Assembly: GCF_000301055.1 (NCBI RefSeq)
Contig: NZ_JH932300.1
Coordinates: 384,118 to 448,117, forward strand
Length of the DNA stretch: 64,000 bases
Reading direction: 5' to 3'
Source: Falseniella ignava CCUG 37419
GTDB lineage: Bacteria > Bacillota > Bacilli > Lactobacillales > Aerococcaceae
Below, piece after piece: positions 16,872-18,771 of the stretch. Made by a program: the position numbers and the translations under genes. Below the pieces are notes generated by a model. The model did no database searches and was not told the DNA's origin. It saw nothing but the letters and a program-made list of their open reading frames with translations. Every line of letters begins with the position of its first letter. Position 1 is the first letter of the stretch.

Positions 16872-17252
16872 GTGACCAGTCCATTTAAGCTTTCTGAGCT
16901 ACTAATTTATCTGTTGCCCCCTATTATTATTTATATCGTTCATTCCTATTTTCGCCGAGAATTAGCGACAGGACTTCCGTTTAAAGTGACTTTAGCCATG
17001 TTACTGATTCCAATTTGGATCGTGAATATTGTACTGTTATCAAAATTGATTTATGGCTTTAGTATTATCCATTATGTTTTGTTGATGGTATCTTTTGCTT
17101 TGGCGATTCACTTGTATGATTATGTTCGATTTATTGACTATTTTTCATTGCAAAAATATAGTATTAAAGCGAGTAAACTAGCCTTCTTTCTACTCTCGAT
17201 ATTTTTAATATCCTTAATTATCTTGAGGGTAATCACTTATTTTATAGTATAA
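16872..17252 (+). CDS. DUF3397 family membrane protein
   Basis: A 126-residue hydrophobic protein with four predicted helices (about residues 8-25, 40-60, 64-85 and 104-125) and a positively charged YFRRELATG loop. Length, helix pattern and position directly upstream of mraZ match DUF3397, which occupies the same slot in lactobacilli and enterococci. It starts with GTG at 16872, preceded by GAGGGA. Function is unknown; location between murA/mbl and the dcw cluster suggests an envelope role. It is the last gene before the terminator at 17260. Confidence 0.75.
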   Translation: MTSPFKLSELLIYLLPPIIIYIVHSYFRRELATGLPFKVTLAMLLIPIWIVNIVLLSKLIYGFSIIHYVLLMVSFALAIHLYDYVRFIDYFSLQKYSIKASKLAFFLLSIFLISLIILRVITYFIV

Positions 17253-17259
17253 AAATTCG

Positions 17260-17293
17260 AAAAGCACTTTGCGAAATGCAAAGTGTTTTTTTG
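17260..17293 (+). terminator. Rho-independent terminator ending the murA-mbl operon
   Basis: AAAAGCACTTTGC (17260-17272) pairs with GCAAAGTGTTTTT (17278-17290) with one wobble, then T and G. The 3' arm also contains the first of the GTG(G/T) repeats described for the mraZ promoter. Confidence 0.8.
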
Positions 17294-17343
17294 TGGAGAA
17301 AAATGGATTTAAAGTGGTAGATTGTGGGGGGATGTGGTATACT
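17280..17343 (+). promoter_or_regulatory. mraZ promoter with an array of putative MraZ boxes
   Basis: The extended -10 is TATACT at 17338-17343 preceded by TGG; no good -35 is present. Upstream, three adjacent decamers read AAAGTGGTAG (17311-17320), ATTGTGGGGG (17321-17330) and GATGTGGTAT (17331-17340). Weaker copies occur at 17280 (AAAGTGT), 17290 (TTTGTGG) and 17300 (AAAATGG), also in 10-base steps. MraZ is known to bind tandem decamers upstream of its own gene (three TGGGN repeats in E. coli, AAAGTGK-N3 repeats in mollicutes), so this array is very likely the autoregulatory operator of the dcw cluster. Confidence 0.7.
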
Positions 17344-17378: not shown

Positions 17379-17810
17379 ATGTTAATCGGGGAATATCAGC
17401 ATAATATTGACGCGAAAGGTCGCTTAATTATGCCAGCCAAATTCAGACAAGATTTAGGTTATAGTTTTATTGTAACGAGAGGATTGGATGGCTGCTTGTT
17501 CGGTTATCCTTTAGAAAATTGGGCGAAAGTTGAAGCGAAACTTGAACAATTACCTCTCTCTAAAAAAGATGCACGAAAATTTACTCGATTTTTCTATTCA
17601 GCTGCCACTGAGGTAGAAGTCGATAAACAAGGAAGAATTAATTTACCGCAAACGCTCATAGATTTCGCTAAAATCGATAAGTCCTGTCGCGTGATCGGCG
17701 TATCAGATCGAATCGAGATTTGGAGCAGTGAAGTTTGGGAAGCTTTTGCGGCAGATATGGAAGATGATTTTGAATCATTAGCTGAAGATATGATTGATTT
17801 TGGATTGTAA
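17379..17810 (+). CDS. mraZ: Transcriptional regulator MraZ
   Basis: First gene of the division and cell-wall cluster; an AbrB-like DNA-binding protein that forms ring-shaped oligomers and controls its own operon. The 143-residue protein shows the two swapped SpoVT/AbrB repeats: [20 protein letters not shown] at the N-terminus and [18 protein letters not shown] at about residues 76-93. GGAGGAGG lies 11 bases before the ATG at 17379. The reading frame ends in a C-terminal acidic helix ([16 protein letters not shown]). Autoregulation is supported here by the GTGG repeats in the promoter. Confidence 0.97.
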
Positions 17811-17823
17811 TGGAGGAGTTTTA

Positions 17824-18771
17824 ATGACTTTTAATCATGAGACAGTCCTATTACACGAGACGATTGATTCATTAAATGTTGTACCTAATGGGATTTATGT
17901 GGATTGCACCTTGGGCGGGTGTGGTCATGCTCAATATTTATTGAGTCTACTGGATGAAGAGGGACATCTTTATGCGTTTGATCAAGACTTGACAGCATTA
18001 GAAAATGCAAAGCAAGTCTTAGCTGACGACATTCAAAGAGGGCGTGTTACGCTAATTCATAGTAATTTTTCAAATTTAAAAGATGAACTAGAAAAATATA
18101 ATGTCAATCAAGTCGACGGCATTTACTACGATTTAGGTGTTTCTTCTCCACAATTTGATATTGCAGAACGTGGTTTTAGTTACCAACACGAAGGCCAATT
18201 GGATATGCGAATGAATCAATCGCAAGCACTGGATGCCCATCAAATTGTTAATGAATGGTCAGAGTCGGAATTAAGTCGGATTATTCGTCGATATGGAGAA
18301 GAACGATTTTCAGGGCGGATTGCACGTCAAATTGTCGAATCACGTAAAAATGCATCAATTGATACAACGTTAGAGTTAAGTGAACTTGTTAAACAAGCGA
18401 TTCCTGCTGCGACGCGACGTAAAGGCGGGCATCCTGCGAAACGAACATTTCAAGCGATTCGCATTGCGGTAAATAATGAATTGGGTGTCTTAGAAGCATC
18501 ACTAGAAGCTGCTGTTCAATTACTCAAAGAGGGCGGACGTATATCGGTTATTTCATTCCATTCGTTAGAAGATCGCATTGTAAAAGGTTATTTCAGAGAA
18601 TTGAGTGCGATGCCTGAGACACCGCCAAATATGCCAATGATTCCAGAAGAATTGTTGCCAAAATATCGAATGGTATCAAGAAAACCCATTGAAGCGACAC
18701 AAGATGAATTAGAGCAAAATCGACGGGCAAGAAGTGCACGTCTACGGGTACTCGAGCGTATTCGAGCATAA
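17824..18771 (+). CDS. rsmH: 16S rRNA (cytosine(1402)-N(4))-methyltransferase
   Basis: Methylates N4 of C1402 in 16S rRNA in the ribosomal P site; formerly mraW. The 315-residue protein begins [11 protein letters not shown], has the SAM loop [14 protein letters not shown], the motif [10 protein letters not shown] and the conserved [18 protein letters not shown] and [12 protein letters not shown] segments. Start at ATG 17824, 13 bases after the mraZ stop and behind GGAGGAG; the frame extends back into mraZ from a poor start. Second gene of the dcw cluster. Confidence 0.97.

Follow-up and report, generated by a model that had tools for sequence, protein, structure and literature searches.

In Mollicutes, the MraZ site consists of three repeats, (AAAGTGKN3)3 with K being G or T, and binding of the MraZ octamer was observed in gel shifts (PMC5282649). 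The site was described by Fisunov et al. (2016), as quoted in PMC5282649 and PMC8475190. In M. genitalium, mraZ is the only place where the (AAAGTGKN3)3 motif is found, and mraW, MG_223 and ftsZ are raised when mraZ is lost (PMC8475190). For M. gallisepticum, an association of increased FtsZ with MraZ overexpression is cited in PMC8475190. B. cenocepacia has four 7-nt repeats with 3-nt spacers; as in E. coli, they are located on the downstream side of the -10 (PMC7761207).

The array of GTGG repeats analyzed here lies upstream of mraZ in Falseniella ignava CCUG 37419 (Aerococcaceae), within a window of 64,000 nucleotides, by which the whole analyzed stretch of DNA is meant. It shares with the Mollicutes site the direct orientation of the repeats, a GTG core after an A/T triplet, the 10-bp step, the number of three copies, the location at the mraZ promoter and the fact that it is the sole such site in the genome. 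The original prediction, which was made from the DNA letters alone, had matched the array to the mollicute AAAGTGK-N3 type, and this agrees with the published (AAAGTGK-N3)3 (PMC5282649, PMC8475190). Unlike the mollicute consensus AAA, however, the leading triplets are AAA only in box 1, ATT in box 2 and GAT in box 3 (the family consensus is A/T-rich), and each of the three cores ends in G. Further differences are the merging of box 3 with an extended -10 and the presence of extra weak copies upstream. The sites of Burkholderia cenocepacia and E. coli resemble the array in their 7-nt repeats with 3-nt spacers (a 10-bp step) and in their location at the dcw promoter (PMC7761207). Yet, those repeats follow the -10 and extend over the start site, whereas the array in F. 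ignava is located upstream of the -10 and overlaps it. The kind of site is already known, and the array is very probably a further example of it in a little-studied family.

Results

The gene downstream of the array, mraZ (17379..17810, + strand), is the first gene of the dcw cluster and encodes a transcriptional regulator of 143 aa, which scores 165 bits against TIGR00242, above the cut-off. The protein contains two tandem MraZ domains (two PF02381 stretches) with the DxxxR motifs D11-R15 and D82-R86, and phmmer yielded full-length matches to the MraZ structures 1n0e, 9qlr, 9qlg and 9sx6. Judged from its sequence, it is a full-length member of the MraZ family. The second gene of the operon, rsmH (mraW; 17824..18771, + strand), matches TIGR00006 with 392 bits and is followed by more dcw genes. 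Between an mbl-like gene and mraZ lies an unnamed reading frame (16872-17252) with a GTG start, whose hydrophobic 126-aa product gave no match in NCBIfam or Pfam.

The array itself, as read from the sequence, consists of three WWW-GTGG-NNN units in an exact 10-bp step on the + strand, with GTGG starting at 17314, 17324 and 17334. Box 1 (17311..17320, AAAGTGGTAG) has its GTGG core at 17314-17317, and box 2 (17321..17330, ATTGTGGGGG), with the core at 17324-17327, falls within the -35 region; the positions of both are conserved in the family alignment. Box 3 (17331..17340, GATGTGGTAT) has its core at 17334-17337, overlaps the extended -10 and is followed by ACT. The three decamers at 17311, 17321 and 17331 with the subsequent ACT are thereby exactly as predicted, to the base. 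The extended -10 of mraZ (17335..17343, + strand, TGGTATACT) reads TGG-TATACT, which corresponds to TGn-TATACT, and its TGn is supplied by positions 17335-17337, the TGG of box 3. The prediction that the decamers end exactly at the extended -10 was therefore right about the adjacency, but they do not merely end there, as box 3 contributes its TGG to the extended -10 itself. Also correct was the idea that the array replaces the -35 region: boxes 1 and 2 fill this region, and no -35 consensus of mraZ was found at the proper distance in the family, the best match to TTGACA being 2-4 of 6 positions at spacers of 15-19 bp in 69 family loci. A canonical -35/-10 promoter for mraZ was rejected on the basis of this poor match. 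Scans for sigma-70 promoters and for terminators had picked up neither the extended -10 promoter, which lacks a -35, nor the terminator of the upstream operon, whose T run was probably absorbed by the greedy stem; the former was identified by visual inspection and the latter by inspection and folding.

Within the 1.77-Mb genome, GTGG-N6-GTGG-N6-GTGG has one exact match, which is the array at mraZ, and the reversed control has none. With up to one mismatch allowed, the window contains one match (the exact one) against 0.04 expected, and the GTGG triple was absent from all of 5000 dinucleotide-shuffled versions of the intergenic region. A looser search for WWWGTGG triples with up to two mismatches yielded two matches in the genome, namely the array and the weak upstream triple adjoining it.

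Across the family, mraZ was detected in 75 of 76 genomes (21 genera), and its start could be read automatically in 70 loci, with five loci remaining unread. A [GA]TGG triple in exact 10-bp steps, running into the TA of the -10, is present upstream of mraZ in 69 of the 70 readable loci from 20 genera; as the family alignment was anchored on these triples, the invariance of the core is partly given by construction, and the informative figure is the 69 of 70 loci which meet the anchor. TA directly follows box 3 on its 3' side in all 69 anchored loci, and the distance from box 3 to the mraZ start is about 40 bp in most relatives. In the 70th locus (G037; L022 1179-1500), array and -10 are likewise present but are located about 300 bp upstream of mraZ, which leaves an unusually long leader of about 260 bp. 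An exact triple is also present at two of the five unread loci (G028 and G057), the remaining three being those of G005, G012 and G013. Altogether, 64 of the 76 family genomes contain the exact triple, and among the matches listed nearly all are located at mraZ. The genomes without it belong mostly to one genus (g3), in which box 3 is often ATGG; there the first G is lost and TGG, which the -10 needs, is kept.

In other families of Bacilli, a 10-bp triple was found within 250 bp of mraZ in all 87 loci with a readable start. Loss of the repeats in relatives that keep the -10 would speak against an operator, as the original prediction had pointed out, but repeats, 10-bp step and -10 are kept together throughout the 20 genera, and the 87 loci of other Bacilli likewise have the triple. 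As box 3 is under a double constraint, its conservation alone is no proof of MraZ binding, and it is boxes 1 and 2 that carry the argument. In the Lactobacillales and several other families of Bacilli, the array runs into the -10 (GTGGTA...T). Other families (f12, f14, f19, f22, f30 and more) have no TA after box 3; there, visual inspection places a -10-like element upstream of the repeats. The position relative to the -10 thus differs between families, the array being found before or after it, and occlusion of the promoter is compatible with either arrangement.

Some relatives showed additional features upstream of mraZ. In G015 (L057), a second partial box/-10 unit, AAAGTGGGGGATGTGGTAAAAT, is found beyond the main array and resembles a duplicated promoter. 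Of 69 family genomes, 57 have a run of at least six T within 70 bp upstream, and its distance from box 1 varies little (median 19 bp). By eye, these T runs are mostly terminators within the family. As some relatives outside the family have a T run without an obvious hairpin, it could also serve as an upstream promoter element.

In order to follow array and gene together, 300 genomes were drawn evenly from the class Bacilli and searched for mraZ (TIGR00242) and, independently, for the exact triple; the two lists were matched by hand. Both were present in 244 genomes, mraZ only in three, the triple only in 11 and neither in 42 (Fisher p = 2.5e-37, which overstates the evidence, as related genomes are not independent; the losses nevertheless fall in several families). 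The exact triple is accordingly found in 244 of 247 genomes with mraZ versus 11 of 53 without it, and 42 of these 53 lack it. Among the three mraZ-only genomes (G019, G236 and G218), G019 has ATGG as box 3 and G236 a near-miss third unit. Ten of the 11 triple-only matches have no rsmH nearby, four of them being situated inside long open frames, and these ten look like chance matches. The eleventh, in G334 (L167 1470-1620), is a triple-GTGG array, GTGGAGAAAAGTGGGTGGTTGTGGTAGAGT, upstream of rsmH in a genome from which mraZ is absent by two models; this is a putative dcw promoter that retained its operator after mraZ was lost. Both mraZ and the array are missing from G238, another member of that genus. 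In genus g24 of the same order, mraZ is absent from all 17 sampled genomes, 16 of which also lack the triple.

Discussion

As the array is conserved at mraZ, tracks the mraZ gene and matches the published (AAAGTGK-N3)3, it is very probably the MraZ operator, that is, a predicted binding site which most likely serves autorepression by promoter occlusion. It comprises at least three direct GTG(G/T) repeats with 3-nt spacers in a 10-bp step at the mraZ/dcw promoter; these are kept in relatives with mraZ and are missing where mraZ is missing (42 of 53 genomes, with one relic at rsmH). With one WWWGTGG-N3 half-site per helical turn, the three GTGG cores would face the same side of the DNA, where neighbouring subunits of a ring-shaped MraZ oligomer could read them, provided that this MraZ binds here and forms such a ring. 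Since the extended -10 takes its TGG from half-site 3 and the -35 region is occupied by half-sites 1 and 2, MraZ and the RNA polymerase holoenzyme should exclude each other, so that negative autoregulation of the operon appears most likely, repression being presumed here over activation. In this family, the affinity is probably increased by a degenerate fourth half-site, which lies one step of 10 or 11 bp further upstream.

The original prediction had proposed six copies instead of three. Its weaker copies at 17280, 17290 and 17300, with an 11-base step from the last of them to 17311, agree with the sequence, and they occupy 17280..17289 (AAAGTGTTTT), 17290..17299 (TTTGTGGAGA) and 17300..17309 (AAAATGGATT), all on the + strand. 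Also borne out by folding is that the first of them lies inside the terminator of the previous operon. This intrinsic terminator (17259..17292, + strand) has the core stem CACTTTGC-GAAAT-GCAAAGTG (17265-17285) and a T run, and it forms a perfect hairpin of -16.7 kcal/mol with a z-score of -4.2; the copy at 17280 consists of its 3' arm and the first T residues. The weak triple (17280-17306) is the only other WWWGTGG triple with up to two mismatches in the genome and adjoins the main array, and a triple as good (up to two mismatches) did not arise in 5000 dinucleotide shuffles of the 58 bp upstream, so that it is unlikely to be a product of chance in this genome.

These findings raise the idea of a bipartite operator, in which the six copies would accommodate either a pair of MraZ rings or a single ring making additional contacts, and in which MraZ at the outer copies would touch the terminator. 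The best upstream triples in 68 relatives have 5-9 mismatches, which sets the F. ignava triple apart, and the fourth unit is enriched in the family: genus-weighted, NTGG occurs there in 21% at the 10-bp step and in 24% at the 11-bp step (about 45% together), over a background averaging 1.7% over all distances. The enrichment is weaker elsewhere, with 8% at 10 bp in other Lactobacillales and 12% at 10 bp in other Bacilli. However, the outer two copies (17280 and 17290) are not conserved in register in relatives, the outermost one is accounted for by the terminator arm, the 11-bp step shifts the register by one base, and the genus was sampled by a single genome. In the family, the half-site score peaks at 31 bp before box 1; conservation of the outermost copy was considered as the cause and was rejected, as the peak involves about 10% of genera and terminator arms lie at that distance. 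A bipartite operator is hence rather improbable. As only the nearest copy has a counterpart, a degenerate one, in the family and the outermost one is a terminator arm, the operator is taken as three boxes plus a degenerate fourth. Of the six predicted copies, the three-unit core and the enriched fourth unit stand, but the outer two are confined to this species, one of them being the terminator arm. There is a small chance that in F. ignava itself the operator may have been expanded to six half-sites, arranged as two triples with an 11-bp junction, with a terminator arm as the outermost half-site and with either two rings or a coupling of termination to dcw control as the consequence.

The sign of the regulation is not fixed by the sequence, and activation is a live rival, albeit an unlikely one. 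MraZ bound at boxes 1 and 2 would then recruit RNA polymerase to the extended -10. The missing -35 match in the family and the location of the boxes, which occupy the position of a class II activator, fit with this idea, as does the link between MraZ overexpression and FtsZ that PMC8475190 cites for M. gallisepticum. However, the TG of the extended -10, which is contacted by sigma, is also contained in box 3, a -35 is dispensable for extended -10 promoters, and in M. genitalium the operon is de-repressed upon mraZ loss (PMC8475190).

It is quite improbable that conservation of the G-rich repeats reflects a G-quadruplex in the mraZ promoter instead of a binding site for a protein. Such a structure is reported for the mraZ promoter of S. 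aureus, on the basis of in-vitro and reporter experiments, and is described as conserved in other species (PMC11796246). That element is likewise a G-rich stretch at the mraZ promoter and may cover the same repeats. The array here is G-rich as well, but it contains a single run of at least three G, and what is conserved is GTGG with its internal T at an exact 10-bp step and not the length of G runs. The array is moreover missing from most genomes without mraZ, which a G-quadruplex element does not predict. While the S. aureus element is explained as a DNA structure in that study, the way in which the array is conserved is consistent with recognition by a protein. A G-quadruplex was rejected as the object of conservation, as it is the spacing that is conserved and the array tracks mraZ. 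The last alternative, a chance run or simple-repeat artefact, has nothing in its favor beyond the low complexity of G-rich decamers and is practically negligible, as it is already refuted by the conservation and is opposed by the uniqueness in the genome, the shuffle tests and the excess over expectation.

With the array as the predicted MraZ operator, the operator of a nearly universal division regulator is now placed in a little-studied family. The fusion of box 3 with the extended -10 occurs in the Lactobacillales and some other families of Bacilli and not in the remaining Bacilli, E. coli and Burkholderia. The lineage-specific extension of the array and the relic in G334 offer natural test cases for the number of half-sites that an MraZ ring needs and for possible other readers of the site. 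If the expansion to six half-sites were true, MraZ at the terminator arm would load two rings or tie termination of the upstream operon to the control of the dcw cluster.
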